Below are positions 12,501-58,428 of a stretch of DNA of 64,000 nucleotides, piece by piece. The notes beneath the pieces were generated by a model that made no database searches, was not told the origin of the DNA, and was given only the letters and a program-made list of their open reading frames with translations. Position numbers and translations under genes: made by a program. This stretch comes from Acidobacteriota bacterium. GTDB lineage: Bacteria; Acidobacteriota; Holophagae; Holophagales; Holophagaceae. The stretch covers positions 248,001-312,000 of the forward strand of contig JACPYP010000020.1 of assembly GCA_016195985.1 (NCBI GenBank), in the 5' to 3' direction. Numbering within the stretch: position 1 is the first letter of the stretch; the number at the start of each line of letters is the position of its first letter.

Positions 12501-12525
12501 TTTTTCTTCTCGTCCCCGACGAACC

Positions 12526-12551
12526 GAAGGCCGCCTCCCGAGGCGGCCTTC
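12526..12551 (+). terminator. rpsR terminator
   Basis: Perfect 11-bp stem GAAGGCCGCCT/AGGCGGCCTTC with a four-base loop, 25 bases after the rpsR stop. The T-rich stretch lies before the stem rather than after it. Confidence 0.75.
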
Positions 12552-12603
12552 GCGCTGTTGCGGGCGCGCTCCGCGCGCACTCCGGACGGCGGGGCCCCGC
12601 TCC

Positions 12604-12647: not shown

Positions 12648-12735
12648 CATCTCGCTGCTGCCCTTCGCCACGGACTGGTTTCTTTTCGTTTCCGACGAAC
12701 ATGAAGGCCGCCCCAGGGCGGCCTTCATGTTGTTG
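12648..12735 (+). pseudogene. Decayed duplicate of rpsR 3' end and terminator
   Basis: This stretch repeats 12471-12560: 24 identical bases covering the last codons of rpsR (the LLPFATD region), then the T-rich spacer, the GACGAAC block and an AAGGCCGCC terminator stem. The copy of the TAG stop reads TGG and no start precedes it, so it is not a gene. Its stem is longer than the original (14 perfect base pairs, 12699-12712 with 12717-12730) and now lies at the 3' end of the convergent gene, where it can terminate it. Confidence 0.8.
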
Positions 12736-20195: not shown

Positions 20196-20230
20196 GTCCG
20201 GGGGTTCCCCGCTGCGCGGACACCCCCGGG
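20196..20230. repeat. GTCCGGGGGT hairpin element, copy 1
   Basis: Outer stem CCGGGGGT/ACCCCCGG (20198-20205 with 20222-20229) enclosing an inner stem CCGC-TGC-GCGG. It lies just after the bamD stop. The same two-tier plan recurs at 23943, 35587 and 36005 in this window. Confidence 0.8.
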
Positions 20231-20291
20231 CCCCCGCCGCCGAAGCAGGATGAACCTGCCCCGACGGCCGCCGACTTCACCGGGAGGCGCC

Positions 20292-21848: not shown

Positions 21849-23273
21849 ATGTTCCATGACTTGAGGGAGAAGGTGAGCGCCCCGCGCCGCCTGGCGGCCT
21901 GGGTGTTGCTGGGCGCGCTGTTGCTGCTGGCGGCCTTCGTGCTGCCCAGGCTCACCTCCCATCCGGCCGCGCAGCAGGCCGCGAACGCCATCCTCTGGTC
22001 CTTGGCGGCCTACGCCGCCATCCGCGGCATCTCCTTCCTGCTGCTGGATCCCCTCCTGAGCCAGCGGAAGACCGCCACACCAGGTTTCACCCGGGATCTC
22101 CTGGTGGTGGCGCTCTACCTGGCGGCCGGGGGAGGCATCCTCCGGCACGCCCTCCACGTGAGCCTGGGCCAACTGCTGGGCACCGGAGCCATCGCGGCGG
22201 CCGTGGTGGGCCTCAGCCTTCAGGAGGTGCTGGGCAACCTTTTCGCGGGCGTTTCCCTGCACCTCGATCCGGCCTTCCGGGAAGGGGACTGGCTGGAGAT
22301 CACCGGCAATCTGCGGGGCGGCCCCGGCCGCGAGACTCTCATCGGACAGGTGGAGGCCATGACCTGGCGCACGGTACAGCTGCGCACCGAGAACGGCGAC
22401 ATGGACATCCTCCCGAACCGCGTCATCGCCCAGGCCGTGGTGACCAACCTCTATGCGCCGTCCGGCCTGCACCGGCGCACGGCCAAGGTCATCGTCGAGC
22501 CCCGGCCCGATCTGCATGTGGCCATCGAAAAGCTCGGCCGCGCCCTGGCGGGGCTCCCCCATCATCCCCACCACCGTCCCGAGGTGGTGGTGCACAGCAG
22601 CGACATGGGCGGCGCCGTGCTGGAAATGCGCTTCTGGGCCCTGGGTTTCCGTCACGGCCGACAAGCCGCCTTCCAGGCCACCCGCCTGGCCGCCACCATC
22701 CTTCCCCGCGAAGGCTTCCGCTTCATGGGGCCCCACGGCCCCACTCCGCTGCCGGCTGCCTCTGATCCCGCTCCTGCCTCGGCGCTCATGGAAGAACTCG
22801 TCGAGCAGCTGGGCCTGCCCGCCCACTGGGCTGAAGACCTGCGCCCCCATCTGCGCTTCCGCTCCGTGGCCCCCGGCGAGGCGGTGATTCGGGAGGGGGA
22901 TCCTGGCAATTCCCTCTTCGCGGTCCATCGAGGCGTTTTGCAGGTGGTCCACCCGGAAGAACGGCTGGAACCCTACACGGGCATTCATTGGAAGGCCGTG
23001 GCGGACCTGGGCCCCGGCCAATGGTTCGGGGAGGCCAGCCTCCTGACAGGGGCCCCGCGCAATGCCACGGTGGTCGCCCTCACGGAAGCCGTCATCCTCG
23101 AGCTGCCCAAGGAGGCCTTTGACCTTTCGCTGCGGCGGGAGCCAGAACTGTTGGAACAGCTGGTAGATCTCATGGACCGGCGCGAACGGGAAACCGCGGC
23201 GGCGGTCCTTCCCAAGGAAGGTCGGCGGAGCCAGTGGATCCGCCAGGTCCGGACTTGGTTTGGCCTGAATTGA
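21849..23273 (+). CDS. MscS-type mechanosensitive channel with cyclic-nucleotide-binding domain
   Basis: 474 residues: about four N-terminal membrane segments, the MscS pore helix region (GTGAIAAAVVGLSLQEVLGNLFAGVSL near 110-135), the beta domain, and a C-terminal CNB domain (about 340-455) with GEAVIREGDPGNSLFAVHRG and GQWFGEASLLTGAPRNATVVA, the last being the phosphate-binding cassette. It would be an osmotic channel gated or tuned by cAMP/cGMP, in the bacterial CNG (bCNG) class. The nucleotide is not proven. Confidence 0.85.
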   Translation: MFHDLREKVSAPRRLAAWVLLGALLLLAAFVLPRLTSHPAAQQAANAILWSLAAYAAIRGISFLLLDPLLSQRKTATPGFTRDLLVVALYLAAGGGILRHALHVSLGQLLGTGAIAAAVVGLSLQEVLGNLFAGVSLHLDPAFREGDWLEITGNLRGGPGRETLIGQVEAMTWRTVQLRTENGDMDILPNRVIAQAVVTNLYAPSGLHRRTAKVIVEPRPDLHVAIEKLGRALAGLPHHPHHRPEVVVHSSDMGGAVLEMRFWALGFRHGRQAAFQATRLAATILPREGFRFMGPHGPTPLPAASDPAPASALMEELVEQLGLPAHWAEDLRPHLRFRSVAPGEAVIREGDPGNSLFAVHRGVLQVVHPEERLEPYTGIHWKAVADLGPGQWFGEASLLTGAPRNATVVALTEAVILELPKEAFDLSLRREPELLEQLVDLMDRRERETAAAVLPKEGRRSQWIRQVRTWFGLN

Positions 23274-23343
23274 ACTTGCTGCCCTCTTGGCTGATCCGTG
23301 CGGGAAAGCCCAGGGTATTCTGGGGAAGGGAGGGGGAGACGTC

Positions 23344-23601
23344 ATGGACTTGCCAGAGCACTTGCACCACCTGGTGAGCGAACTGGGCGATTCTCTGTTG
23401 AAGGCCCTGGCTGATGACGACCATTGCCGCGATCTGGCCTTCCAGATCCAGGCCAAGGGATACGGCCTGATGCTGATTCTCGAAGCCTCGCCCGCCAACC
23501 CCGCCCGGGATCCCTTCGATTCGGATGACAGCGATCCGCAGCCGCCCTTCTCCGAGGACGACATGCGGTTGATGAAATCCTTCAAGATCAAGATGGACTG
23601 A
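23344..23601 (+). CDS. Small acidic protein of unknown function
   Basis: 85 residues, unrecognised. It is acidic, without membrane segment or signal, with a helical first half (LHHLVSELGDSLLKALADD) and an Asp/Pro-rich middle followed by a short basic end. GGGGGAG precedes the ATG, and it ends two bases before rlmN, so it is very probably translated with it. A role in rlmN regulation cannot be claimed. Confidence 0.65.
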   Translation: MDLPEHLHHLVSELGDSLLKALADDDHCRDLAFQIQAKGYGLMLILEASPANPARDPFDSDDSDPQPPFSEDDMRLMKSFKIKMD

Positions 23602-23603
23602 GG

Positions 23604-24755
23604 ATGACCCAGGCGTGGGATGCCCCGGCCCCCGAAGCCGGCAAGCCAGTGCGCCACAACGCCGCAGGCATGGGCCGCGTCGAACTGAGCGCTCTGCTCG
23701 CCTCGCTGGGGGAGCCTTCCTGGCGGGCCGCCCAAATCCTCTCCGGCCTGCTGCGCCAGCGGTGGACCCGATGGGAGCAGTTCTCGAACCTGTCGAAGGC
23801 GCTCCGGGCCCGCCTGGAGGCCGAAGTGGATCTCGCCTGGCCCGCCATCGTGCAAAGCCATGCCTCGTCCGACGGATCGACCAAGCATGTCTTCCAGCTC
23901 GCGGACGGCCATCAGATCGAAGGCGTCCACATGCCTTATGCCGTCCGGGGGTCCGGTCTGCGACCTACACCCCCGGACATTATTGAAGAAGAGCTCGACC
24001 GCGTGACGTTGTGCCTGTCCAGCCAGGTGGGCTGCGCCATGGGCTGCACCTTCTGCGCCACGGGACAGATGGGCATCATCCGCAATCTGAGCGCCGCCGA
24101 GATCGTGGGCCAAGTGATGGCCATGCTGCTTCATCACGGCCACCCGCCGGACCGGCCCATCAACCTGGTGTTCATGGGCATGGGCGAGCCTCTGCACAAC
24201 TTCGACCACCTGATGGCGGCTTTCGCCACGCTGACGGACGCCGAGGGCCTGGCCATCCCGCCCCGCCGCATCACGGTCTCCACGTCCGGCCTGGCGAGCG
24301 GCATCGAGCGCCTGGGGGCCTTCGCCAAGCGGCCCCGCCTGGCTCTCAGCCTCAACGGCACCACGGACGAGCACCGCTCGCGCATCATGCCCGTAAACCG
24401 GGTCTGGAACCTGGAGGCCCTGGCCGCGGTCCTGGGCCGTTTCCCGCTCCAATCCGGCGAGCGCATCACCCTCGAATACGTACTGCTCAAGGGGCATACC
24501 GACAGCCAGGAGGATGGCCGCCGCCTGGCCGCCTTCGCCCGGCGCTTCCCCGCCAAGATCAACCTGATCCCCTTCAATCCCCACGAGGGCTCGGGCTTCG
24601 AGACGCCCGACGAAGCCCGCATCAGCGCCTTCTGCCAGCTGCTTTCGGATGCGGATCTGCCCGTCAGCGTCCGGCGCAGCCGGGGACAGGACGTAGCCGG
24701 CGCCTGCGGCCAGCTGGTGCGCGAGGGCCAGTCCCGGCATCCGAAAACGCGCTGA
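23604..24755 (+). CDS. rlmN: 23S rRNA A2503 / tRNA A37 C2-methyltransferase RlmN
   Basis: 383-residue radical-SAM enzyme. CAMGCTFC is the CxxxCxxC cluster motif, NLVFMGMGEPLHNFDHL the SAM region, and SRGQDVAGACGQL carries the C-terminal catalytic Cys. Residues 114-125 (VRGSGLRPTPPD) form part of an extra segment between GVHMP and DRVTLCLSSQVGC, where relatives have a short PEED-type link. Those 12 codons (23943-23978) are exactly a GTCCGGGGGT hairpin repeat. The frame stays open and all active-site residues are intact, so the enzyme is probably functional. Confidence 0.95.
   Translation: MTQAWDAPAPEAGKPVRHNAAGMGRVELSALLASLGEPSWRAAQILSGLLRQRWTRWEQFSNLSKALRARLEAEVDLAWPAIVQSHASSDGSTKHVFQLADGHQIEGVHMPYAVRGSGLRPTPPDIIEEELDRVTLCLSSQVGCAMGCTFCATGQMGIIRNLSAAEIVGQVMAMLLHHGHPPDRPINLVFMGMGEPLHNFDHLMAAFATLTDAEGLAIPPRRITVSTSGLASGIERLGAFAKRPRLALSLNGTTDEHRSRIMPVNRVWNLEALAAVLGRFPLQSGERITLEYVLLKGHTDSQEDGRRLAAFARRFPAKINLIPFNPHEGSGFETPDEARISAFCQLLSDADLPVSVRRSRGQDVAGACGQLVREGQSRHPKTR
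23943..23978. repeat. GTCCGGGGGT hairpin element inside rlmN, copy 2
   Basis: GTCCGGGGGT (23943-23952) and ACCCCCGGAC (23969-23978) are perfect 10-bp arms; inside them GGTC-TGC-GACC forms a second stem. The plan (outer stem, inner stem, TGC loop) is the same as copy 1. The element spans 36 bases, 12 codons, in frame. Confidence 0.85.
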
Positions 24756-24773
24756 ATCGGTCATGCTGGAGGG

Positions 24774-25376
24774 GTGTCCTCCACGCCGAGACCCTTTTTT
24801 GAAACCCTCCATACCCTGCTCGACGCGGAGGGGGGGATCACGCTGGGCGAGCTGCTGGACGCGGCGGGCGAGCAGACCTACGGCCTGCTGGTGCTGCTGC
24901 TGTCCTTGCCGAACCTCATCCCCGGCCTGAACGTGGGCCTCGCCCCCGTGGGCGGCGTGGCGCTCATCGCCCTGGGCGCCCAGCTGGCCTGGGGGCGATC
25001 CCATCCCTGGGTGCCTCAGCGGATCCAGGCCCAGCCCATCCACAAGGGCCGCATCAAGGAGGCCCTGGCCAAGCTGGAGTACCAGTTGAACCGCTTCCGG
25101 TGGCGCGGGGCCCGACAACGCCCCCTGAATCCCCGCTGGATGGGTGCCCTCATCGCCTGGACAGGATTCCTGCTGGCCATTCCGGTGCCCCTGCCCTTCG
25201 GCAACCAGCTCCCGGCCGCCATCCTCTGCCTGCTCGGAGCAGCCCTGCTGGAAGAACGCCCTGCCTGGGCCTGGATCGGCGCCGCGGCGGCCTTCGCCAA
25301 CACCCTGTACTTCGCCTCCAGCTTCGGCCTCATCGCCCGCGCCTTCCTGAAGGCCTTCCACGCCTTGGTGAAGTGA
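24774..25376 (+). CDS. ExoD-family membrane protein
   Basis: 200 residues with four to five hydrophobic segments. LGELLDAAGEQTYGLLVLLLSLPNLIPG and the two-proline turns IPVPLPFGNQLPAAILCLLG match the ExoD exopolysaccharide synthesis family; biochemical function is unknown. The GTG start is close to GGAGG (two bases), so the exact start is uncertain. Its TGA overlaps the trmD ATG by one base. Confidence 0.8.
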   Translation: MSSTPRPFFETLHTLLDAEGGITLGELLDAAGEQTYGLLVLLLSLPNLIPGLNVGLAPVGGVALIALGAQLAWGRSHPWVPQRIQAQPIHKGRIKEALAKLEYQLNRFRWRGARQRPLNPRWMGALIAWTGFLLAIPVPLPFGNQLPAAILCLLGAALLEERPAWAWIGAAAAFANTLYFASSFGLIARAFLKAFHALVK

Positions 25377-26167
25377 TGCGCATCGATGCCCTCACGCTGT
25401 TTCCGGAATTCTTCGAGGCCGCGCGGCTGGGCATCACGGGCCGGGCCTTCCGGGAACTGGGCCAGGCCCTGCATACCCACAGCTACAGGCCCTTTTCCGG
25501 GAACACCTTCGGCCATGTGGATGATTCGCCCTTCGGCGGCGGCCCGGGCATGGTGCTGCGTCCCGACGTGCTGCGCGACACCCTGGCCTCCGTGCCCCGG
25601 ACGGGCGCAGGCCGGGTCATCCACTTCACCCCGGCGGCGCCCCCGCTGACCCACGCCAAGGTGCTGGAGCTGGCGAGGCTGGATCAGCTCATCCTGGTTT
25701 GCACTCGGTACGAGGGACTGGATCAGCGGGCGGTGGATCAGCTGGTGGACGAGGAGTTCAGCATCGGCGAGGCCGTGCTCAGCGGCGGCGAATTGCCCGC
25801 GCTCTTCCTCATCGATGCGGTCTGCCGGTGGCTCCCCGGCGTGCTGGGCAATGAGGCCTCCGCCGAACAGGACAGTTTCGCCACGGGCCTGCTGGACCAC
25901 CCCCACTACACCCGTCCCGCTTCCTTCGAGGGCCAGGCGGTGCCCGCGGTCCTCCAGGGGGGCGATCACGGAGCCATCCGCCTCTGGCGCCTGCGGGAGG
26001 CCATGGCCCGCACCCGGCGCCTGAGGCCCGACCTCTGGGACGCCTACCTGCGTGACCGGCTGGGGGCCCTGGACCGCCCGGCCCAATGGTGTGCCTGGCA
26101 AGTGGAGCACCCCCAGGATTGGGAGCGGCCCAAGCCCAAGGGCTGGAAGGGGTGGAAACGCCAATGA
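25376..26167 (+). CDS. trmD: tRNA (guanine-N1)-methyltransferase TrmD
   Basis: 263 residues; methylates G37 to prevent +1 frameshifts. Knot and SAM motifs are clear: DDSPFGGGPGMVLRPDV, ILVCTRYEGLDQR, SIGEAVLSGGELPALFLIDAV, and the late LLDHPHYTRPASFEGQAVPAVLQGGDH. The usual rpsP-rimM upstream pair is missing; an exoD-like gene takes that place, while rplS follows as normal. Confidence 0.96.
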   Translation: MRIDALTLFPEFFEAARLGITGRAFRELGQALHTHSYRPFSGNTFGHVDDSPFGGGPGMVLRPDVLRDTLASVPRTGAGRVIHFTPAAPPLTHAKVLELARLDQLILVCTRYEGLDQRAVDQLVDEEFSIGEAVLSGGELPALFLIDAVCRWLPGVLGNEASAEQDSFATGLLDHPHYTRPASFEGQAVPAVLQGGDHGAIRLWRLREAMARTRRLRPDLWDAYLRDRLGALDRPAQWCAWQVEHPQDWERPKPKGWKGWKRQ

Positions 26168-26206
26168 ACGCTTCCCTTTCCCCGGCGTTCCGGTAGACTG
26201 TTGGAC

Positions 26207-26224
26207 TCCCCGTCTGGGGATTTT
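26207..26224 (+). promoter_or_regulatory. Candidate attenuator before rplS
   Basis: TCCCC-GTCT-GGGGA followed directly by TTTT, a small intrinsic-terminator-like hairpin in the 107-base trmD-rplS gap. A wider dyad, GAACGC/GCGTTC (26166-26171 with 26185-26190), precedes it. It may tune readthrough into rplS. Confidence 0.4.
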
Positions 26225-26274
26225 CGTGCCATGTCCGCCGATCTCGGTGTGGGACCGCTGGCCCAGGAGCCCAC

Positions 26275-26634
26275 ATGAGCCATATCATCGATCAACTCGA
26301 AGCCGGCCTGCTTCGCCACGACCTGCCCCGCATCCAGCCCGGCGACACCGTCAAGGTGCACGTGAAGGTGAAGGAAGGCGAAAAGGAGCGCATCCAGCTC
26401 TTCCAGGGCATCATCATCGGCATCAAGGGCGGCGGCATGCGCACCTCCTTCACCGTCCGCAAAGTGGCGAGCGGCGTGGGCGTAGAGCGCATCTTCCCCC
26501 TGAACAGCCCCACCATCGACAAGCTCGAAGTCATCCGCCACGGCAAGGTCCGCCGCGCCAAGCTCTACTTCCTCCGCGAGAAGCTGGGCAAGGCCGGTCG
26601 CCTCAAGGAGCGCCGCACCGAGCGGCCCGAGTAG
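26275..26634 (+). CDS. rplS: 50S ribosomal protein L19
   Basis: 119 residues; IQPGDTVKVHVKVKEGEKERIQLFQGIIIGIKGGGMRTSFTVRKVASGVGVERIFPLNSP is diagnostic bL19 sequence (SH3-like barrel at the subunit interface). AGGAG five to six bases before the ATG sets the start. It is the last gene of the long run and is followed by a strong terminator. Confidence 0.97.
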   Translation: MSHIIDQLEAGLLRHDLPRIQPGDTVKVHVKVKEGEKERIQLFQGIIIGIKGGGMRTSFTVRKVASGVGVERIFPLNSPTIDKLEVIRHGKVRRAKLYFLREKLGKAGRLKERRTERPE

Positions 26635-26650
26635 GTTTTTTCATTCTCTG

Positions 26651-26674
26651 GAAGGCGCCCGCAAGGGCGCCTTC
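26651..26674 (+). terminator. rplS terminator
   Basis: Perfect 10-bp stem GAAGGCGCCC/GGGCGCCTTC with loop GCAA, followed by TTC-rich sequence. Confidence 0.85.
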
Positions 26675-26757
26675 TTCATGTCGGACCGGACCTCGTTCCT
26701 ATTTACTAAACCCAATTAGATCTTTATTTCTACAAAATATATCCTCCGAAGCCTACG

Positions 26758-26836
26758 GCCATTCTTGCCCTTCTGTGGAAGAATGGCTTTGGGCCATCCG
26801 GCAGCTCCCTCCGGGGCCCGCTCCCCGGGAGGAAGC
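26758..26836 (+). promoter_or_regulatory. Structured leader of barrel gene, possible SD-masking hairpin
   Basis: An AT-rich patch (26697-26750) that could hold the promoter is followed by a perfect 9-bp stem GCCATTCTT/AAGAATGGC (26758-26766 with 26779-26787) and TTT. A second stem pairs CCTCCGGGG with CCCCGGGAGG, whose last bases are the ribosome site of the next gene. Translation control is inference. Confidence 0.45.
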
Positions 26837-27367
26837 ATGAAGACTTCATTTCTTGCCGCACTGGCGCTGCTGGCCCCCGCCCTGGCCCTCAAGGCCGAGG
26901 CGCCCAGGTACGGCCTGCAGGGCCTGGCCAACATCCCCCTGGGCGATCTCAAGACCTATGTGGACAGCAAGCCCGGGCCCGGCTTCGGCATCCATGGCAC
27001 CTTCGACTTGAATGACGGCCACATGCTGCGGCCCCGGATGGACTACAGCGTGTTCCCCGAGGCCTCCTTCACCACGGTCAAGCAGAACGCCTCGACCCTC
27101 AGCCTCGGTGGCGACTACCTCTACTTCATCGCCGGAAAACCCGAAGGCCTCTACCTCACCGTGGGCGTCTCCGCCGTGCGCTGGTCCTTCGAGCACAAGG
27201 ACGCCTCCATGGACATCACCACCCGCACCACGAAGGCGGGCTTGGCCGCAGGCGTGGGCTACCAGTGGAGCGCCACCCTGGGCACCGAGGCCCGCTGGCT
27301 GCACTCCAGCGTATCCAACACCTTCAAGGCCGACACGCTGCAGGGCGGAGTCACGGTCCGTTTCTGA
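26837..27367 (+). CDS. Small outer-membrane beta-barrel protein, paralog A
   Basis: 176 residues with a signal peptide (MKTSFLAALALLAPALALKAEA). The rest is alternating hydrophobic strands ending in Phe (GGVTVRF), an outer-membrane barrel terminus of the OmpA/OmpW-like size class. The C-terminal half aligns with the gene at 28285 (GLYLTVGVSAVRWSFEH against GMYLVGGLGGVRWSLDQ). Function is unknown. GGGAGG precedes the start. Confidence 0.75.
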   Translation: MKTSFLAALALLAPALALKAEAPRYGLQGLANIPLGDLKTYVDSKPGPGFGIHGTFDLNDGHMLRPRMDYSVFPEASFTTVKQNASTLSLGGDYLYFIAGKPEGLYLTVGVSAVRWSFEHKDASMDITTRTTKAGLAAGVGYQWSATLGTEARWLHSSVSNTFKADTLQGGVTVRF

Positions 27368-27377
27368 CCGGGCCGGA

Positions 27378-28073
27378 TCAGGGCTTCGCGGCCTCGGACC
27401 ATTCGGCGGCGCGCACCGCGTCCACCTCGGTCCGGTTGCGGGGATCCGCCAGCCAGGCGGCGGCGAGGCGCATGGCCAGCCGCTGGCCCGCTTCGATGTC
27501 CGAGGGATAGTGGACGCCGCCGATCACCCGGTCCACGCCCGCCTGCCGCCCCGCCGCCAGCAGGGCCTCTCGCCGCTCCGGCGCCAGTTCCGCGAGGACG
27601 ATGCCGAAGATCAGGCCGCGGGTGGCATGGCCGCTGGGATACGAGGGGCTGGTCTCCCGATCGATGGCCGGCTGCACCCGGGCATCCGTGAGGTAGGGCC
27701 GCGGCCTCAGGAAATGCTTCTTCAGGCTGTCCGTGACGGCCTTGGTATCCTTGCCCGCCTTGTCGATCAAAGCTGCGGTCTTCGGGAACTGGGCGGCGCT
27801 CAGGGGCCGGCCCGAGGCGGCGGCATAAGCCTCCAGCCCCAGCTTCACCTCCGAAGCGGCGCGCGCGATGTCCGCGGGCGTGCGGGTGCGCTGATGCCAG
27901 AGCAAGATGGCGATATCCGCCTTGCCCTCGTCGGAACCCACCGCCGGAAAGGGCCCCAGGAAGGCCACCCATTCAGGGGAGGCCGCTGGCTGCTGAGTGG
28001 AGACGGGCGCCGTCTGGGCGAAACCAGCCAGCCCGGCCAGGAGGAGCAGACAGCCGATGAGCTTGCGTCGCAT
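27378..28073 (-). CDS. Class A acid phosphatase, PAP2 superfamily
   Basis: 231 residues, secreted (signal MRRKLIGCLLLLAGLAGFAQ). The three-part phosphatase motif is complete: KKHFLRPRP (K-X6-RP), SYPSGHAT (PSGH with catalytic His) and DRVIGGVHYPSD (R-X5-H-X3-D; the usual Ser before Arg is Asp). It should release phosphate from organic esters in the periplasm. GGAGG precedes the ATG. It lies between two paralogous barrel genes and runs opposite to both. Confidence 0.9.
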   Translation of the reverse strand: MRRKLIGCLLLLAGLAGFAQTAPVSTQQPAASPEWVAFLGPFPAVGSDEGKADIAILLWHQRTRTPADIARAASEVKLGLEAYAAASGRPLSAAQFPKTAALIDKAGKDTKAVTDSLKKHFLRPRPYLTDARVQPAIDRETSPSYPSGHATRGLIFGIVLAELAPERREALLAAGRQAGVDRVIGGVHYPSDIEAGQRLAMRLAAAWLADPRNRTEVDAVRAAEWSEAAKP

Positions 28074-28134
28074 GGGGCCTCCGAAGGATTCCGCCCAGTG
28101 TGCCCGAGCCCCGCGTCCGAAACCATGGAGCGCC

Positions 28135-28217
28135 GGTGAACACCTTGCAGCATGCGTGGCAGTTCACCACAGCCTTCGCAGCCTGAACCCACGGAATCCC
28201 ACGCCCCAACGGGATTC
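28135..28217. repeat. Two small dyads upstream of barrel paralog B
   Basis: GGTGAAC/GTTCACC (28135-28141 with 28162-28168) and GAATCCC/GGGATTC (28194-28200 with 28211-28217), both perfect 7-bp arms in the gap between the phosphatase and the second barrel gene. They may be operators or leader hairpins. Confidence 0.45.
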
Positions 28218-28284
28218 GCGCTTCGGCACAACCCGTGCGTAGCGAGGCCAACGCTCGACTCCCCGAGCCCCCTCAGGAGCTGCC

Positions 28285-28860
28285 ATGCCCCTCACCCGCG
28301 GTCTGTACCTGCTTCCACTGGCCCTGGCCGGTCTCACCCTCGCCGCCGGCGAGGATTCCGGAAAGGCGCCGAAGCACAAACGCTGCGATGCCTTCGGCTT
28401 CAGCATCCAGGCGGACCAGCCTCTGCGGGACCTGCGGGACAGCCTCGACAATCGCATGGGCTATGGCCTGGGCCTGCAGTGGACCCACGACCACGGCGAG
28501 TTCCACGCGAGCCGCACGCGCTTTGAATGGAACACCTTCCCGGAAGGCCATCCCGTGGGACCCGGCAACACCACCACCTACGCCAAGAACCTCACGCTCA
28601 GCTTCGACCATCTGTTCCGCCTGAACGAAGGCCCCACGGGAATGTACCTGGTGGGCGGCCTGGGCGGCGTGCGCTGGAGCCTCGACCAGCACACGCCCGC
28701 CTATGATTCCAACCTCACCACCACCAAACTGGCCGTGACCACGGGCGTGGGCCTGCAGGTCAACCGACAGTTCACGGTGGAGGGACGCTACGTGTTCAGC
28801 GGCATCCAGAAGACCTTCGATTCGAACACCGCGCAGATCAGCGCGGCCTGGCGCTTCTAG
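28285..28860 (+). CDS. Small outer-membrane beta-barrel protein, paralog B
   Basis: 191 residues with a signal peptide (cleavage near LTLAAG). Strand-like sequence to the final AAWRF, again an aromatic C-terminus for the barrel machinery. It shares the GxxGxVRWSL block, the TTTKLAVTTGVG segment and the NTFxxDT/KTFDSNT end with the gene at 26837, so the pair arose by duplication. Function is unknown. It converges with ubiD with a four-base overlap. Confidence 0.75.
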   Translation: MPLTRGLYLLPLALAGLTLAAGEDSGKAPKHKRCDAFGFSIQADQPLRDLRDSLDNRMGYGLGLQWTHDHGEFHASRTRFEWNTFPEGHPVGPGNTTTYAKNLTLSFDHLFRLNEGPTGMYLVGGLGGVRWSLDQHTPAYDSNLTTTKLAVTTGVGLQVNRQFTVEGRYVFSGIQKTFDSNTAQISAAWRF

Positions 28861-30326
28861 ACCCCGTACTCCTTCCAACGCCGCGCGACTTTCGCCCGGA
28901 TCTCCTCCGGGAACACAAGGTCGCGCGGCCACTCGCGCGCGTAGCCGTCCCAGGGGCGGTTCTTGCGGGTGGCGTCGATGCCCACCTTGCTGCCGAAGGC
29001 GAAGCGGTCGGCGGCGTGGTCCAGCACGTCCAGGGGCCCTTCGGTGAAGAGCATGTCGCGCTTGGGGTCCACGTTGCTGGTGAGACGGAAGAGCACTTCG
29101 TTGAGATCGTGGGGATCGATGTCCTCGTCCACCACCACGATGCCCTTGGTGAACATGATCTGGCCCGTGCCCCAGATGGCGTTCATGACCTTCTGCGCGT
29201 GGCCCGGATACTCCTTCTTCATCGACAGGATCACCAGATTGTGGAACGCGCCGGCCGCGGGCAGGTGCATGTCGCGGATCTCGGGCAGCACCATGCGCAG
29301 CAGAGGCAGGAAGATGCGCTCCGTGGCCAGGCCCAGGTAGGCGTCCTCCTGCGGGGGCCGCCCCACGATGGTGGCGGGAAACACGGGGTTCTTCCGCATG
29401 GTGATGGCTTCCACGTGCAGCACGGGATAGTCGTCGGCCAGGGAGTAGTAGCCCGTGTGGTCGCCGAAGGGGCCTTCGCGCCGCAGCTCGTCGGGATTCA
29501 CGTAGCCCTCGATGACGATCTCGCTGTCGGCGGGGACTTCCAGATCGTTGGTCACGCACTGGACCATCTCGATGCCCTCGCCCCGCAGGAAGCCCGCGAA
29601 CATCACCTCGCTGAGGAAGGGCGGCAGGGGCGCGGTGGCCGCGTAGGTCAGGGCCGGATCGCCGCCGAAACTCACGGCCACGGGCATGCGCTCGTCGCGG
29701 CCGTAGCCGTGGCGGTTGCGGGCGCCGTCGTGGTGCAGCTGGGTGTGGAAGCCCAGAGTGCGGTCGTCGTAGACCTGCAGGCGGTAGAGGCCCACGTTGC
29801 GGTGGCCCGTCTGCTTGTTGCGGGTGTGGCTCATGCCCAGGGTGATGAAGGGGCCGCCGTCCTCGGGCCAGGTGGTGAGCACGGGGAGTTCCGAAAGCCG
29901 CACCTGGTCGCCCTTCAGCACGATCTCCTGGCAGATGCCCTTGCGCACGGTCTTGGGCATCCAGTTGGAGACTTCGGCCAGCACAGGCAGCTTGGCCAGC
30001 TTCTCGAAAAACCCCGTGCCGGGCTTGGGCATGGCCTCCTGCACCAGCTTCTCGATGCGGTCGGCGATGGCGTCCAGGCCCCGGGGTTCCTGGTCCACCC
30101 CCAGCGCCATTTCCATGCGCCTGAGGCTGCCGAAGGCGTTCATGACCACGGGCATGCCGTGGCCCTTGGGGCGCTCGAAGCGAAGGGCCCTGCCGCCCCC
30201 GGGCTGCTTGGAGACCTGGTCTGCGATGGCGCCCATTTCCAGGTGCGGATCCACCTCCGGGGTCACCCGGGCCAGTTCGCCCGCGGCTTCAAGTTGCTTC
30301 AGGAAGGTTTGGAAATCGCGGCTCAT
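28857..30326 (-). CDS. ubiD: UbiD-family prenyl-FMN-dependent decarboxylase
   Basis: 489 residues. The family signature REGPFGDHTGYYSLADDYP is present, as is the prFMN/metal region (GHRNVGLYRLQVYDDRTLGFH) and the late RLTSNVDPKRDM. It decarboxylates an aromatic or polyprenyl-hydroxybenzoate acid; whether quinone synthesis or aromatic degradation is meant cannot be decided, and no ubiX is adjacent. The start MSRDFQTFL is placed by family length; the ribosome site is weak. Confidence 0.88.
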   Translation of the reverse strand: MSRDFQTFLKQLEAAGELARVTPEVDPHLEMGAIADQVSKQPGGGRALRFERPKGHGMPVVMNAFGSLRRMEMALGVDQEPRGLDAIADRIEKLVQEAMPKPGTGFFEKLAKLPVLAEVSNWMPKTVRKGICQEIVLKGDQVRLSELPVLTTWPEDGGPFITLGMSHTRNKQTGHRNVGLYRLQVYDDRTLGFHTQLHHDGARNRHGYGRDERMPVAVSFGGDPALTYAATAPLPPFLSEVMFAGFLRGEGIEMVQCVTNDLEVPADSEIVIEGYVNPDELRREGPFGDHTGYYSLADDYPVLHVEAITMRKNPVFPATIVGRPPQEDAYLGLATERIFLPLLRMVLPEIRDMHLPAAGAFHNLVILSMKKEYPGHAQKVMNAIWGTGQIMFTKGIVVVDEDIDPHDLNEVLFRLTSNVDPKRDMLFTEGPLDVLDHAADRFAFGSKVGIDATRKNRPWDGYAREWPRDLVFPEEIRAKVARRWKEYGV

Positions 30327-30343
30327 GCGCCATGATCCCACCC

Positions 30344-30372
30344 CCGTTGGTGCGGCGGAAGCCGCCGTTGGT
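30344..30372 (+). promoter_or_regulatory. Direct-repeat CCGTTGGT sites, candidate LytTR operator
   Basis: CCGTTGGT occurs at 30344-30351 and again at 30365-30372, 21 bases apart, two DNA turns. AlgR/LytTR-domain regulators bind CCGTTNGT-like direct repeats with about this spacing. The sites lie 46-74 bases before the LytS-like kinase gene, which is followed by a LytTR regulator, so autoregulation is a strong inference. Confidence 0.55.
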
Positions 30373-30417
30373 TCAAAACCCTGGACCCCCGCGTCCCTCC
30401 GGGAAGATCCTGAGGAC

Positions 30418-31404
30418 ATGCGCCACTGCGCCACTTGGCCCTCGTTCCTTTCCTGGATCTTCCGCTCGGTCATCCTCGGAGCCCTGGTGGGCCTGGGTCT
30501 GCATGCGGCGGTGGGCGGCCCGCATGGGAACCCTTTCCAGACCATCGCCATCGGCGTCATTTTCAGCGTGGTGATGTGGGGCGGCTTCCACCTGCTGCCC
30601 ACGCCCCATGAACGCCTGCCGAGCCACTGGCCCGCGGCCCGGGTGGGGCTCTTCGCCACGGGCTGGATCCTGCTGCTCTACCTCCTTCTGCTGGGCCTTT
30701 CCATCGGCCTGGTGCGGGTCTTCACGGGCGTCAACATCGTCCGGTCGCGCCTCGTCCTGATGCTCACCGGCGCCGCCGGGCTGGCGGCCACGGGGGTCAT
30801 TGCCACCAAGGAGACCGTCGAACACCAGGTCCAGATCCAGCGCGACCTGGCGAAGGCGGAGGCGCGCGCCAGCTTCCTCGGCCTGCAAGCCCAGTTGCAG
30901 CCCCATACCCTGTTCAACGCCCTCAACACCATCGCCGCCCTGATCCCTGACGATCCCCGCAGGGCCGAGGAAGCCACGGAGCGGCTCTCTTCCTTGCTTC
31001 GCCGCATCCTCGGCGCGCTGGAGCGCCCCACCTGGACCTTGGCGGAAGAGTTCCAGCTGCTGGACCACCTGCTGGGCCTGGAGCGGCTGCGCTTCGGCGA
31101 TCGCCTGGCCTTCGACCTCGAGCTGGCCCCCGATCTGGCCCAGGAGCCCGTGCCGCCCCTGCTGCTGCTGCCCCTGGTGGAGAATGCCCTCAAACATGGT
31201 TTCCGCCCCAGGGTGGGTCCCTGCCGGCTGCGGGTGGTGGCGGCCCAGCGGATCATCCGGGTGGAGGACAACGGCGTGGGCCGGGCTCCCGGCGTCCCCG
31301 AAGGCCTGGGGTTGCGCACAGTGCGGGAGCGGCTGGAGGCTGCTGGAGGCAGGCTGGCCTGGCCGGCCGTGGCCGAGGGTTGCACGGCGGAGGTGCGGCT
31401 GTGA
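30418..31404 (+). CDS. LytS/YehU-type sensor histidine kinase
   Basis: 328 residues: four membrane segments in the first 130 (about 10-30, 42-60, 76-100, 112-130), a short coiled linker, then the His_kinase domain (GLQAQLQPHTLFNALNTI, H163) and an ATPase domain with LPLVENALKHG (N box) and VEDNGVG (G1). The residue after the phospho-His is Thr where most relatives have Phe. GAGG precedes the ATG closely. The stop overlaps the regulator start, so it pairs with the LytTR protein. Confidence 0.87.
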   Translation: MRHCATWPSFLSWIFRSVILGALVGLGLHAAVGGPHGNPFQTIAIGVIFSVVMWGGFHLLPTPHERLPSHWPAARVGLFATGWILLLYLLLLGLSIGLVRVFTGVNIVRSRLVLMLTGAAGLAATGVIATKETVEHQVQIQRDLAKAEARASFLGLQAQLQPHTLFNALNTIAALIPDDPRRAEEATERLSSLLRRILGALERPTWTLAEEFQLLDHLLGLERLRFGDRLAFDLELAPDLAQEPVPPLLLLPLVENALKHGFRPRVGPCRLRVVAAQRIIRVEDNGVGRAPGVPEGLGLRTVRERLEAAGGRLAWPAVAEGCTAEVRL

Positions 31405-32186
31405 CCGTTTTCCGATACGCCCTCGTCGAGGATGAGCCCCCCGCCCGGGGCCGTCTCAAACGCCTGGTGGCGGAGCTGGCTCCCGGATCCCAATGCGTGG
31501 GGGAGGCGGCCGATGGCGAGGCGGGGCTGGCCCTGCTCGCGCGGCTTCAAAAAGAAGCGCCAGACCTCCTCTTTCTCGACATCGAATTCCCGCCAGAAGG
31601 CGCCTTCGGCCTCCTGCGCCGCGCGAAGGAGCTGGGTCTGGCCCTGCCCGCCCTGGCCTTCGTGACCGCCTACGACCAGCATGCCGTGGAGGCCTTTCGC
31701 TGGGCCGCCTGCGACTACCTGCTGAAGCCCGTGGAACGGGCGAGGCTGGGAGAAACCTTGGCGCGGGTGAACAGGGGCAGGCTCACCCCTGCCCTCGCAC
31801 CAGTCCCGGATCTGGGACTGCTCCTACAGGCCCTGGAGGCCACCCGCAGGCAGGCCATGCCAGAGCGATTCACCGTGCTGGTGAAGGGCCGGATCCTCGT
31901 GCTGGCCTGGGCCCAGGTGAGCCACCTGCGCACGGAGAACCGCCTGCTCTTCGTGCACACGCCCGAAGGGCGCTACGTCCTGGACCGCAGCCTGGACGAG
32001 CTGGAAGGCCTGCTGGCGCCGCGCTTCATCCGCACCCACCGTTCGGCCATGGTGGCCCTGGACGCCATCCGCGAGCTGGCGCCCGATCCCGGTGGCACCG
32101 GGGAGCTTCGGCTGCAGGACGGCTCCCGCCTCCCCGTGAGCCGCGACCGCATGGCCGAGCTCCGGGCGCGGCTGGGGCAGGGCTGA
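31401..32186 (+). CDS. LytTR-family response regulator
   Basis: 261 residues: receiver domain (VEDEPPARGRL, phospho-acceptor D60 in LLFLDIEFP, Lys in YLLKPVE) and a LytTR DNA-binding domain (about 158-258) with HLRTENRLLFVHTPEGRYVLDRSLDEL and FIRTHRSAMVAL. The GTG start has GGAGG seven bases ahead and overlaps the kinase stop. Likely targets are the CCGTTGGT sites upstream of its own operon (30344) and of the next gene (32211). Confidence 0.9.
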   Translation: MTVFRYALVEDEPPARGRLKRLVAELAPGSQCVGEAADGEAGLALLARLQKEAPDLLFLDIEFPPEGAFGLLRRAKELGLALPALAFVTAYDQHAVEAFRWAACDYLLKPVERARLGETLARVNRGRLTPALAPVPDLGLLLQALEATRRQAMPERFTVLVKGRILVLAWAQVSHLRTENRLLFVHTPEGRYVLDRSLDELEGLLAPRFIRTHRSAMVALDAIRELAPDPGGTGELRLQDGSRLPVSRDRMAELRARLGQG

Positions 32187-32210
32187 CCGCCCTTCGGGAG
32201 ATCCCCTCCG

Positions 32211-32219
32211 CCGTTGGTG
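32211..32219 (+). promoter_or_regulatory. Single CCGTTGGTG site upstream of TPR gene
   Basis: The same nine bases as the first copy at 30344, placed 70 bases before the TPR/TonB pair. A partner 21 bases away is degenerate at best. Suggests that the LytTR regulator also acts here. Confidence 0.4.
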
Positions 32220-32288
32220 CGTTCGCCGGCGCGGCCCGGAGGCCCCGGGCCCAGTCTGGCGCAGGCCTTCCGCCGCCCGGAGTCTTCG

Positions 32289-33017
32289 ATGCGATCGTTG
32301 CCATCCCTCCCTTGCGCCGCCCTGTTCCTTCCGGCCTTCATCGCCCCGGCCCAGGAACCCAGCCTCCCCGCCCTGCTGGCCCGGCTCCAGGCCCTGTCCA
32401 CGGACCAACTCCGGGGTCTTCAGGCCCGGCTGGCCCTGGATCCCGCCCCCGCGGACAAGAAGGCCTACCACGAGCTGCACCTCGCCTACGCGCTCGCCAG
32501 CCGCCTCCAGAAGGAGGATCCGAAGACCGCCGAGCAGCTCACGGACCGTGCCCTGAAATCCCATGAGGCCTCCCGGGATCCGGAGATCCAGATCCTGATG
32601 GGCGCCTTCCTGGGCCTGAAGATCGGCTTCTCGCCCATGTCGGCCATGGTGCTCAGCCCCAAGGCCATGGGCCGCTTCGAACGGGCCCTGGCCCAGCAGC
32701 CAGGCAACCCCCGGGCCCTCCTCTTCAAGGCCATCCACACCCTCCACATGCCGGCCTTCGTGGGCGGCGGAGCCGAGGCCGCCCTGCCCCTGGCCGAAGA
32801 AGCCGCGCGCCGAGCGGCGGCGGAACCCGCCCCCGCCGATCCCTGGGCCCCTGCCTGGGGGCGGGTGGAAAGCCTGGGCTGGCTGGCCTACATCCAGGCC
32901 AAGGCGGGCAAGCCGGCCGAGGCCCGCGCTACGGCCAGCCGGGCCCTGGCCCTGGATCCCGGCAATCCCTTCGTCACCCGCCAGGTGCTGCCCCTCCTGA
33001 AGGACCTGGCTTCATGA
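32289..33017 (+). CDS. Periplasmic TPR-type protein
   Basis: 242 residues with a signal peptide (ending near FIAPAQEP). The rest is helical with TPR-like pairs (KKAYHELHLAYALASRLQKEDPKTAEQLTDRAL; ALLFKAIHTLHMP; LGWLAYIQAKAGKPAEARATASRALALDPGNP). It probably acts as a scaffold for the next gene's product: its stop overlaps the TonB receptor start by four bases. Unique function is unknown. Confidence 0.7.
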   Translation: MRSLPSLPCAALFLPAFIAPAQEPSLPALLARLQALSTDQLRGLQARLALDPAPADKKAYHELHLAYALASRLQKEDPKTAEQLTDRALKSHEASRDPEIQILMGAFLGLKIGFSPMSAMVLSPKAMGRFERALAQQPGNPRALLFKAIHTLHMPAFVGGGAEAALPLAEEAARRAAAEPAPADPWAPAWGRVESLGWLAYIQAKAGKPAEARATASRALALDPGNPFVTRQVLPLLKDLAS

Positions 33018-35143
33018 GCCTCGTGGCCCTGATCCAGGCCGCCGTGGAATTGACGGGGGTGGTGCTGGGGCCGGGCGGCCTGCCCCTGCCCAGGGCCTTG
33101 GTGACCGTGGGGGACCGCCAGGTTCAAACCGACGCCCAGGGCCGTTTCCGGCTGGCCCTGCCCGGGCCCGGACTGGTGGCGGTGCGCATCACGGCGCCCG
33201 GCATGGAGGCCCAGACCCGCGAAGGCCGGCCCGGCGAACCGCTTCAGGTGCTGCTGAGCCCCGCCCCCCAGGGCGCGGTGGTGGAGGTGGTGGAGGGCAG
33301 CGGCTACAGCAGCCAGGAGGGCACCACGTCCACGCTGTCGCGCATGGACATCTACACCACGCCCGGGGCCGCCGCCGACGTGCTCCAGGCCGCCAAGGGC
33401 CTGCCCGGCGTGAGCAATGCCAGCGAGGGGGCCGAACTCTTCGTGCGGGGCGGCAAGCCCGAAGAGGTGGGGCTGTGGCTCAACGGCGGCCGCCTCACCC
33501 GCCCCTTCCATCACCCCAGCACCCAGGGCGGCATCTTTTCGGCCGTGGACACGGCGCTGGTGACCCGCGTGGATTTCGTTCCCGGCGCCTTCTCGGCCCG
33601 CTACGGCGATGCGCTGTCAGCGGTGCTGGACATTTCCACGGACCAGCCCTCGCCCAAATCCACCCAGGCCCTCATGCTCACCCTGCCCACCCAGGGGTTC
33701 TCCCTGGAGCGCCCCGTGGGCGAATCGGTGTTCCGGGCCTCGGCGCGGCGCTCGGATCCCGTCCTCCTCGACAGGTGGTACGGCCTCGCCTCCACCTTCG
33801 AGGAATCGCCCCTTTCCCACGATGTCCAGCTGAACTGGCAGCAGCCCCTGGGAAACGGCCGCCTGGCGGCGACGGGGCTTTTTTCCAAGGACCACCTGGC
33901 CACCGACGTGACCATCGCCAACCTCAAGGACAGCTACCGCAACCAGAGCGAGACACGCTTCGGCGCCCTCCAGTGGAACGGCGCCCTTGGCGAGCGGGTG
34001 GGCCTCACCCTCGCGGCCTCCGGGAGCGCCTCCCGCCTGGCCTGGACCTTCAACCAGTGGGGCATCAGCCAAGACGAGCGGAACCGCTCCGCCCGTGCCG
34101 AGCTCACCCTGCCCTTCGGGGAGGATTTCACCCTCGAAGGCGGGGCCGATCTGGACCGGGGCCGGGTGGATCCCACGGGCCAGGTTCCGGCGGACCTCAG
34201 CAACTGGAACCCCGCCTCGGGCGCCAGGATCTTCGCCTACGGCTTCAATCCCAGCCGGGACGGCGCCTATCTGACGGCCCGGCTGCGCCTCAGCCCCAGC
34301 TGGGGCCTATCCCTGGGCGGCCGCACGGACCACTACGGGCTGATGCATGAAACCACCCGGGACCTGCGGGGCACCCTCTCCTGGCTCCTCCGGGAAGGGC
34401 TCACCTTTCGTCTGGCCGGCGGCAGCTTCCACCAGGCCCCGCCCGCGGACCGCATCGACCCCCACGCCGGCAACCCCAACCTGCGGGTGATGCGGGCCAC
34501 CCACGCCCTGGTCTCGCTGGATGCGGCTTGGAAGGGGGAGGCCGCCTGGAACCTGCGGGTGGAGGCCTACCGCAAGGACTACGACCGGCTGGTGGCCAAC
34601 GACCCGGTGCGGCGGTACAGCTCCGCGGGCCGGGGCTACGCCCAGGGGCTGGACCTGCTCCTGAAGGCCACCCTCCCGCGGTGGCGGGGCTGGATCGGCT
34701 ACGGCTACCTCGACACGCGGCGCAAAGAGGAGAAGCAGCTGGTCCTCGGTCCGGTGCCCACCAGCGTGCCCCACAACCTCACGGTGGTCTCGGCCCACAC
34801 CCTGGCCCCGGGCTGGGAACTGGCGGCCACCTTCCGCTACGCCAGCGGCCCCACGGTCACGCCTGTCCTCGGAGCCACCCCCAATCCCGGCGGAGGCTGG
34901 GATCCGGTGGAGGGCCCGGTCTACGGGGACCGGCTTCCGGTCTACCACCGGCTGGACCTCCGGCTGACCCGCCTGTACCGGGCCGGCCCCTTCACGGGCG
35001 CTGCCTTCGCCGAGGTCATGAACCTGCTCAACCGCCACAATGTCACCGCCTACACCTACTCCGCCGACTTCAGCCAGCGCTCGGTGAACGAAAGCTATTT
35101 CAGCCGCCGCATCCTCGTGGCGGGCCTGACCCTCTCCTGGTAG
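33014..35143 (+). CDS. TonB-dependent outer-membrane receptor
   Basis: 709 residues. An N-terminal carboxypeptidase-regulatory-like domain (about 12-80, TDAQGRFRLALPGPG) leads to the plug (about 95-235; ADVLQAAKGLPGVSNASEGAELFVRGGKPEEVGLWLNGGRL) and a 22-strand-type barrel ending in GLTLSW. The signal peptide is unusually weak (MSLVALIQAAVE). No siderophore or vitamin genes are adjacent, so the ligand is open. Co-translated with the TPR gene and probably regulated by the LytTR system upstream. Confidence 0.88.
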   Translation: MSLVALIQAAVELTGVVLGPGGLPLPRALVTVGDRQVQTDAQGRFRLALPGPGLVAVRITAPGMEAQTREGRPGEPLQVLLSPAPQGAVVEVVEGSGYSSQEGTTSTLSRMDIYTTPGAAADVLQAAKGLPGVSNASEGAELFVRGGKPEEVGLWLNGGRLTRPFHHPSTQGGIFSAVDTALVTRVDFVPGAFSARYGDALSAVLDISTDQPSPKSTQALMLTLPTQGFSLERPVGESVFRASARRSDPVLLDRWYGLASTFEESPLSHDVQLNWQQPLGNGRLAATGLFSKDHLATDVTIANLKDSYRNQSETRFGALQWNGALGERVGLTLAASGSASRLAWTFNQWGISQDERNRSARAELTLPFGEDFTLEGGADLDRGRVDPTGQVPADLSNWNPASGARIFAYGFNPSRDGAYLTARLRLSPSWGLSLGGRTDHYGLMHETTRDLRGTLSWLLREGLTFRLAGGSFHQAPPADRIDPHAGNPNLRVMRATHALVSLDAAWKGEAAWNLRVEAYRKDYDRLVANDPVRRYSSAGRGYAQGLDLLLKATLPRWRGWIGYGYLDTRRKEEKQLVLGPVPTSVPHNLTVVSAHTLAPGWELAATFRYASGPTVTPVLGATPNPGGGWDPVEGPVYGDRLPVYHRLDLRLTRLYRAGPFTGAAFAEVMNLLNRHNVTAYTYSADFSQRSVNESYFSRRILVAGLTLSW

Positions 35144-35161
35144 CCCCGGCAGGAATTTTCA

Positions 35162-35190
35162 TTGAGCCGGAAGGGTTTTCCCCGCATACT
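35162..35190 (+). promoter_or_regulatory. Promoter of rplU-rpmA-obg run
   Basis: TTGAGC (35162-35167), 17 bases, CATACT (35185-35190): a good sigma-70 match about 80 bases before rplU, with nothing similar closer. Confidence 0.5.
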
Positions 35191-35270
35191 GGGAGGCCTT
35201 GCCCTGGCCATGGGCTTTCAAGCGCGTCCGACGGACTGCCGCCCATGCGCCCCAAAACAAAGAGGTTTTC

Positions 35271-35582
35271 ATGTACGCAATCATCAAGACCGGCGGAAAG
35301 CAGTACCGCGTCTCTGAAGGCGATGTCATCCGCGTGGAGACGCTGGAGCAGGAGGCCAAGCAGGCCGTCACCTTCGATCAGGTGCTCCTTATCGACAACA
35401 ACGGCGATCTGAAGGTGGGCAAGCCTGTCGTGGCCGGCGCCAAGGTCGAAGCCGAAGTCATCACCCATGACCGCGCCAAGAAGGTGATCATCTTCAAGAA
35501 GAAGCGCACCACCACCTACCAGCGCACCCAGGGCCACCGCCAGAACTACACCGAGGTCCGCATCAAGGCCATCAAGGCCTAG
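35271..35582 (+). CDS. rplU: 50S ribosomal protein L21
   Basis: 103 residues; [18 protein letters not shown] and the basic late [29 protein letters not shown] are diagnostic bL21. AGAGG precedes the ATG. It starts the L21-L27-Obg block, conserved in order across bacteria. Confidence 0.97.
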
Positions 35583-35586
35583 TGCT

Positions 35587-35652
35587 GTCCGGGGGTTCCC
35601 CTCGCAACGCATGCGTTGTGAGGGCCTAAGGGCGCACAGCGCGCACACCCCC
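35587..35652. repeat. GTCCGGGGGT hairpin element, copy 3 (enlarged)
   Basis: Outer arms GGGGGT/ACCCCC (35591-35596 with 35647-35652) enclose a near-perfect palindrome of CCCTC...GAGGG arms around CAACGCATGCGTTG, plus a GCGCACAGCGCGC segment. The element fills most of the rplU-rpmA gap; longer than the other copies, as if another palindrome had been inserted. Confidence 0.7.
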
Positions 35653-35739
35653 AACTCCGATGCTCACGCGGGTGAAACCCGCGCCCGCATCACTCCCTCT
35701 TCCCGATCCACGACATCCAGATTTTGCAGAGGTAATTCC

Positions 35740-36000
35740 ATGGCTCACAAAAAAGGCGTAGGTTCCAGCCGCAACGGTCGCGATTCCCATTCCCAGCGCC
35801 TTGGCGTGAAGGAGTTCGGTGGCGAGCAGGTCACCGGCGGCTCCATCCTCGTCCGCCAGCGCGGCACCAAGTTCAAGGCCGGCATCAATGTCGGCATGGG
35901 CAAGGACCACACCCTGTTCGCCCTCATCGACGGCAAGGTGCGCTTCCAGGACAAGGGCCAGAGCGGCCGCTTCATCCACATCGATCCCATCGAGGGTTGA
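35740..36000 (+). CDS. rpmA: 50S ribosomal protein L27
   Basis: 86 residues beginning [29 protein letters not shown], the bL27 signature; the N-terminal tail reaches the peptidyl-transferase centre. It starts directly as AHKKG with no cleavable Firmicutes-type extension. A GCAGAGG ribosome site precedes the ATG. Confidence 0.97.
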
Positions 36001-36004
36001 TGCC

Positions 36005-36040
36005 GTCCGGGGGTTCCGCGCTGCGCGCACACCTCCGGAG
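36005..36040. repeat. GTCCGGGGGT hairpin element, copy 4
   Basis: TCCGGGGGT (36006-36014) pairs with ACCTCCGGA (36031-36039) with one mismatch; the centre CGCG-CTG-CGCG forms the inner stem. It starts five bases after the rpmA stop. Confidence 0.75.
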
Positions 36041-36047
36041 CCCCCTC

Positions 36048-36076
36048 GCACAGGCCGGGCAAAGCCCGGCCTGTGC
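36048..36076 (+). terminator. Strong hairpin between rpmA and obg
   Basis: GCACAGGCCGGGC-AAA-GCCCGGCCTGTGC, a perfect 13-bp stem. Only a short TCATT follows, so it may act as a processing or pausing signal rather than a full terminator. Confidence 0.6.
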
Positions 36077-36110
36077 TCATTCCACACCCACCAGGAAGTG
36101 AAGACCCACC

Positions 36111-58092: not shown

Positions 58093-58428
58093 CCACGGAT
58101 TGAACGGATTGACACGGATTCAGGAGCGCACCACCACCCTTCTTTCAAATCCGTGCAAATCCGTGTCCTCCGTGGTCCAAATTTCCGCCCAGATGCCCCT
58201 CTTCGCAGAGCCCACTGAAACCACGGATTGAACGGATTGACACGGATTCAGGAGTGCACCACCACCCTTCTTTCAAATCCGTGCAAATCCGTGTCCTCCG
58301 TGGCCCAAATTTCTGCTCGGATGCCCCTTTTCGCAGAGCCCACTGAAACCACGGATTGAACGGATTGACACGGATTCAGGAGCGCACCACCACCCTTTTA
58401 AAATCCGTACCAATCCGTATCCGTGGTT
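58093..58428. repeat. 128-bp tandem repeats, 2.6 copies, each a hairpin
   Basis: Copies start at 58093, 58221 and 58349 (the last cut short and diverged). The first two differ at only a few positions. Each unit begins CCACGGATTGAACGGATTG and later carries AATCCGTGCAAATCCGTG, its near complement, so each folds into a long stem. There are no spacers, so this is not CRISPR. It occupies most of the 404-base gap between the GxxExxY gene and argR. Confidence 0.92.

Follow-up and report, generated by a model that had tools for sequence, protein, structure and literature searches.

We report that the insert in the rlmN gene of this genome (G000) is very probably an in-frame copy of a Geothrix 3'-end repeat, here called element A, which is tolerated as a loop and whose copy number has drifted. 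The gene lies at 23604-24755 on the forward strand of the window, by which we mean the whole stretch of 64,000 nucleotides that was analysed, and it encodes RlmN, a dual-specificity methyltransferase of rRNA and tRNA, of 383 aa. The open reading frame scored 324.8 bits against TIGR00048 (RlmN, cut-off 290) and matches RlmN structures in the PDB. The radical-SAM CxxxCxxC motif and the C-terminal catalytic Cys region are both present and invariant, and the catalytic motifs of the host are thus intact.

Residues 114-125 (VRGSGLRPTPPD) are encoded by a two-tier hairpin, HP1, at 23943-23978 (+), with the sequence GTCCGGGGGTCCGGTCTGCGACCTACACCCCCGGAC. Its outer arms of 10 bp, inner GGTC/GACC stem of 4 bp and TGC loop are exactly as an earlier note on this DNA had described them. 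The stretch folds at -24.9 kcal/mol (z = -3.75), and with up to 3 mismatches allowed the pattern occurs once in the window and in none of 100 shuffles. The inserted stretch as a whole spans 23940-23996 (+) between MPY and DRVTLC and is made up of GCC, HP1 and a ATTATTGAAGAAGAGCTC tail, that is 19 codons as compared with one codon in empty relatives. Relative to M. tuberculosis RlmN (6fz6) the protein is longer by 18 residues, precisely at the hairpin site, and the sister species and most Geothrix have a short linker, in accordance with the unusually long linker that the earlier note recognised. In the AlphaFold model (mean pLDDT 88.6) the insert joins strands 104-113 and 131-138 with a pLDDT of about 56-62, and it is predicted to be a flexible, disordered surface loop. 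The insert is presumably neutral to the enzyme. The earlier note also proposed that a mobile-like hairpin had become coding with the enzyme unbroken. The coding insert, the intact motifs and the disordered loop agree with this; the mobility is presumed. Neither a transposase nor a transposition event was found, and the analysis turned up no mechanism of transposition for element A, no duplicated target and no recent insertion.

A full unit of element A consists of TGYT, HP1, a C-rich linker of the GCCCCCGCG type and a second hairpin, HP2, and measures about 78-84 bp. HP1 has an outer stem of 9-10 bp, an inner stem of 4 bp and a 3 nt loop, while HP2 has a stem of 13 bp and a 3 nt loop and is variable in sequence. 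A search of the genome with the rlmN stretch itself brought up related copies, among them a tandem array with a period of 79 bp. The copy counts come from searches with a covariance model of HP1 and the linker. At E<=1e-4 this model matched 31 times in G000 and 3-41 times per Geothrix genome. Among 60 relatives, all 37 Geothrix genomes gave matches (G. rubra and G. fermentans DSM 14018 are among them), and the 23 genomes from other genera gave none. Over a wider set of 247 Acidobacteriota genomes, the matches outside Geothrix (18 genomes) were limited to two further genera in its family. Within the sets searched, element A is a Holophagaceae/Geothrix-specific two-hairpin repeat. The hairpin is abundant both in this genome and in every Geothrix genome, which answers the concern, raised with the earlier note, that it might be absent elsewhere. 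A search of window positions 23000-37000 against Rfam at the gathering threshold gave no match.

Three more copies in the window, always in non-coding gaps, had been claimed earlier. With filters off, the HP1 model matched the rlmN copy at E 1.9e-7 (HP2 is missing from rlmN in this species) and found two significant additional copies; a third was rejected, the remaining matches being noise with E about 0.2 or worse. The location held up, since both copies are non-coding and lie directly 3' of a stop codon. The first, HP1 with linker at 20196-20237 (+; E 4.1e-10), begins 5 nt past the stop (TAG GTTCT GTCC...). The second, at 36005-36047 (+; E 1.7e-10), comes right after the TGA stop of a bL27-like gene and ahead of an obgE-like gene, and a hairpin search and folding showed that it continues into HP2 at 36048-36076 (+), a perfect 13-bp stem with a 3-nt loop (GCACAGGCCGGGC AAA GCCCGGCCTGTGC). 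Elsewhere in G000 (C17:24863-25216, L009) five element A copies follow one another at a period of about 79 bp with long frames open throughout, in the gap between a gene for a likely acyl-CoA dehydrogenase and one for a ubiE-like methyltransferase. The window also holds other palindromes. At 12525-12552 and 12698-12731, less than 200 bp apart, are two perfect hairpins that have related cores (GGCCGCC) and are possibly gene-end terminators. At 58111-58167 and 58239-58295, spaced 128 bp apart, are two repeats of nearly identical sequence (GACACGGATTCAGGAG...CCGTGTC), each bounded by inverted terminal arms of 10 bp.

The position of element A relative to genes is strikingly regular. We distinguished 77 copies, 42 of which stand behind the stop of a same-strand gene and 15 of which are downstream members of tandem arrays. 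Ten lie inside a long open frame (nine in rlmN or in the tail of an ABC ATPase, one in a tandem array), and the last ten include more rlmN and ABC ATPase copies together with unresolved contexts. Some long ORFs running across element A were considered as coding copies and rejected, as the downstream frames are kept open by the repeat. Of the 42 post-stop copies, 26 have the start of HP1 at a distance of exactly 4 nt from the stop; this is extreme against a uniform null of 0-59 nt, though it should be noted that orthologous copies are non-independent. Depending on the species, the orthologous 3' UTR between the bL27-like and obgE-like genes holds either element A or different palindromic repeats, and because of this we suggest, from the sequences compared, that the palindromic repeats may be interchangeable 3'-end modules. 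At this locus (window 35990-36110; L305-L328) long palindromes of the CCACGAAGGACACGAAGG and ACCACGGAGGCACCGAGG types stand in for element A in part of the species, as though entire terminator-like modules had been swapped. These palindromic repeats presumably terminate transcription.

The rlmN site, in turn, is filled in some Geothrix genomes and empty in others. In empty alleles the sequence is MPY-x-(D/G/K/R)-RVTLC. In filled ones it is MPY-[VRGSGLRPTPPEPPRPGQAEPxPG..]n-..LDRVTLC, with 26 aa per copy and n = 1 to 4, and the allele of G000 has HP1 alone and a short tail. This site (site 1, MPY|..|DRVTLC) is filled in 11 of 37 Geothrix genomes and empty in 26. The close relatives lack the insert residues, contrary to the concern that all of them might share these residues with unrelated codons; the sister species G020 (support 100/96) and most of the genus keep MPY-x-DRVTLC. 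Likewise, the filled G019 pairs with G028, which is empty at the MPY|DRVTLC site. The distribution requires 8 changes on the tree, at least 5 of them forced by strong branches. Local recombination was rejected as the source of this patchiness, as trees of the 180-bp flanks on each side still need 8 changes; these trees revealed no exchange of 180-bp flanks between species, and over 30-bp flanks the filled-filled distances are only slightly below the filled-empty ones. In a Holophagaceae MAG outside the main clade (L114) the RlmN linker is nine residues longer at the same site and different (MPYPPRGVHAPAPGRVTLC), which is perhaps an unrelated insertion or a scar.

All filled alleles have Leu before DRV, and all but one share a TAT-G-Y-Y left end. 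This would suit one old insertion followed by losses. The strict form of this history, a single insertion in the Geothrix ancestor with repeated losses and no later gains, is one to which we give somewhat less than an even chance. The junction and the Leu before DRV common to all filled alleles speak for it, and the copy 3' of the bL27-like gene likewise gives the impression of an old one that several species have inherited vertically. However, the losses would have to be numerous and each would have to bring back the ancestral spacing exactly, while no scars were found at the insert site of the empty alleles, and the DNA trees of the local flanks are equally patchy. Given the patchy tree and the scarless empty alleles, neither simple insert history fits cleanly. 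The history may have been one old insertion whose many losses left no scar, several insertions at one and the same site, or an exchange of short tracts between species.

An independent second coding host of element A is the ABC ATPase tail; in five species the RlmN peptide array recurs at this C-terminus, and the reading frame is the same one. Stop-codon loss or read-through is unsupported as the origin of this tail, because in the empty relatives the protein stops within a few residues, with no element A behind it in the 3' UTR. In G004 (L273) the same coding tail holds an independent palindrome, a perfect HP2-like one (GCTCAGAATCCGGC GCA GCCGGATTCTGAGC), instead of element A. RlmN is also host to a second Geothrix repeat family, element B, of about 75 bp (RTGAGSCCGNAGCAGGAGCGGAG...), which is found in frame at two other loops: site 2 (HPxDR|..|PVNLVF) in four genomes (L078-L081) and site 3 (NPHE|..|GSGF) in three genomes (L038, L039, L042). 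At least one palindromic-repeat insert is present in the RlmN of 16 of 37 genomes. Among the cultured isolates, G. fermentans DSM 14018 (L018/L087) carries an insert at site 1 and G. rubra Red803 (L080/L107) one at site 2. In most filled alleles the element B inserts are flanked by direct repeats that contain RTGA. Copies elsewhere in Geothrix (L285-L299) occur as tandem arrays with RTGA at both ends in most cases, and several intergenic copies supply, with their first TGA, the stop of the gene upstream.

These target contexts, with element A directly behind TRA/TAG and element B at RTGA, where RTGA or CATGAGGG is repeated on either side of the RlmN inserts, may be read in a more dynamic way. 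Elements A and B would then be live mobile repeats with stop-codon-like targets, entering and leaving precisely by a trans-acting or transposase-independent mechanism, and RlmN would be hit repeatedly because stop-codon-like sites happen to lie in its loops. We regard this as rather unlikely; if true, it would mean scar-free gain and loss across species.

The explanation that we favour, a tolerated in-frame copy of a 3'-end repeat, would run as follows. The usual home of element A is the gene 3' end right after the stop, where it probably acts as an RNA hairpin or terminator-like module. A copy or an array most likely entered rlmN at the turn of the beta-hairpin that links the N-terminal domain to the radical-SAM core; we infer that it came into the gene from elsewhere and did not arise in place. 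The insert would have been tolerated as an open-framed, Pro/Gly-rich loop with a length that is a multiple of three. Tandem duplication and deletion would subsequently have altered the copy number, giving 1-4 units and, in G000, HP1 alone.

Further, we considered the frame and the conservation of the repeat. All 12 coding tandem intervals are exactly 78 bp, whereas non-coding intervals vary between 78 and 84 bp, with 5 of 14 being multiples of 3 and 9 not (Fisher p = 7e-4 for frame-keeping in coding versus non-coding intervals). In the units that were checked no forward frame is closed by a stop, and 78 bp divides by three, so that the insert is most likely translated, as part of RlmN, into a Pro/Gly-rich disordered loop. 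In filled rlmN alleles, divergence at third codon positions is 0.12 in HP1 against 0.37 and 0.24 in the 90-bp flanks. At codon positions 1 and 2 of HP1 it is 0.10, about equal to the third positions, and it is therefore the nucleotide sequence that is held and not the peptide. HP1 shows covariation across subfamilies (24 both-side-changed cells against 9.6 in shuffles), and for the coding copies of HP2 the double-sided changes number 18, where shuffles give 7.5 and slid registers no more than 3. The rlmN hairpins are thus kept by compensatory changes. This conservation is compatible with a nucleic-acid role, with homogenisation between copies or with templated palindrome correction.

The first of these would make the hairpin more than a tolerated passenger, retained in rlmN for a function at the mRNA or DNA level, for example in transcriptional or translational attenuation or pausing. 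The low third-position divergence in HP1 relative to the flanking enzyme and the compensated pairing of HP2 are in line with such a function, as are the fixed register of standard element A copies to stop codons and the reported influence of stop-adjacent REPs on translation, which is affected by REPs at <=15 nt from stop codons (PMC12306157). Still, 26 of the 37 Geothrix genomes manage without the insert at rlmN site 1, G000 lacks HP2, the units vary from 1 to 4, and homogenisation between copies or templated quasi-palindrome repair would equally preserve the pairing. We find retention for such a function unlikely.

It is very doubtful that element A belongs to the REPs and owes its movement to a Y1 transposase of the RAYT/IS200 type. 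A small palindrome at gene 3' ends and in tandem arrays resembles REPs, some HP1 variants have GTAG beside the inner stem on the reverse strand, and intragenic REPs are already known (PMC3733652). Against this, a PF01797 (Y1/RAYT) profile search, in which the positive controls matched, found none in G000 and none in 22 of 24 Geothrix genomes searched, yet the elements are in all of them. As no Y1 transposase was found in G000, RAYT is excluded there as a resident system. Moreover, GTAG is never at the element end: GCGC-type HP1 lacks it, and where it is present (reverse strand) it lies within the outer stem. Nor is there a conserved terminal CGTC tag, the sequence before HP1 being mostly YTGTCC/YTCTCC and CGTC occurring only in some copies (rlmN of G000). 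Finally, an ordinary lineage-specific loop insertion that is palindromic by chance would agree with the tolerance of RlmN loops to length change, but is refuted by the homologous copies, since dozens of non-coding ones share the nucleotide plan and relatives have tandem repeats of the unit.

Among the known systems closest to element A are the Rickettsia palindromic elements (RPEs), palindromic repeats in frame inside conserved genes (PMC2229807, PMC3733652). The analogy, drawn in the earlier note, is valid for behaviour and not for sequence. Both are palindromic repeats found in intergenic regions and in frame in conserved genes (for element A, rlmN and the ABC ATPase versus its intergenic copies), the enzyme is apparently functional, and no dedicated transposase is known. 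By the published description RPEs are set apart by their length of 105-146 bp (PMC2229807), as against 78-84 bp for the two-hairpin unit. Element A also differs in its phylum, its confinement to Holophagaceae in the sets searched, its fixed post-stop register, its intragenic tandem arrays and its two host genes, the only ones found. Intragenic GTAG/CGTC REPs are likewise short palindromes clustered at gene 3' ends and sometimes in ORFs. They include in-frame groups that encode tens of residues, overlap with or supply of stop codons, and same-site insertion in Xanthomonas recB, and the survey in question has no Acidobacteria among the hosts of GTAG or CGTC repeats (PMC3733652). Element A is distinguished from them by its two-hairpin unit, by having no conserved terminal GTAG or CGTC tag and by there being no RAYT in G000. 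ERIC, Correia/NEMIS and other coding MITEs are small non-autonomous repeats with open frames and gene fusions (PMC2229807); element A is also small, open-framed and fused to genes, but neither terminal inverted repeats nor a TA target duplication were recognised for it. We found nothing relevant on palindromic inserts in Geothrix or RlmN among open-licence papers.

Taken as an in-frame copy of a 3'-end repeat, the rlmN insert adds Acidobacteriota to the groups with protein-coding palindromic repeats, and its host is a conserved enzyme. The strict 4-nt post-stop distance also suggests that Geothrix has a 3'-end module which has apparently not been described before. A single genus, cultured isolates included, offers natural empty, one-copy, multi-copy and two-family alleles, and with this series the neutrality of the insert, the persistence of hairpin versus peptide and the spread of a repeat without a visible transposase become testable.
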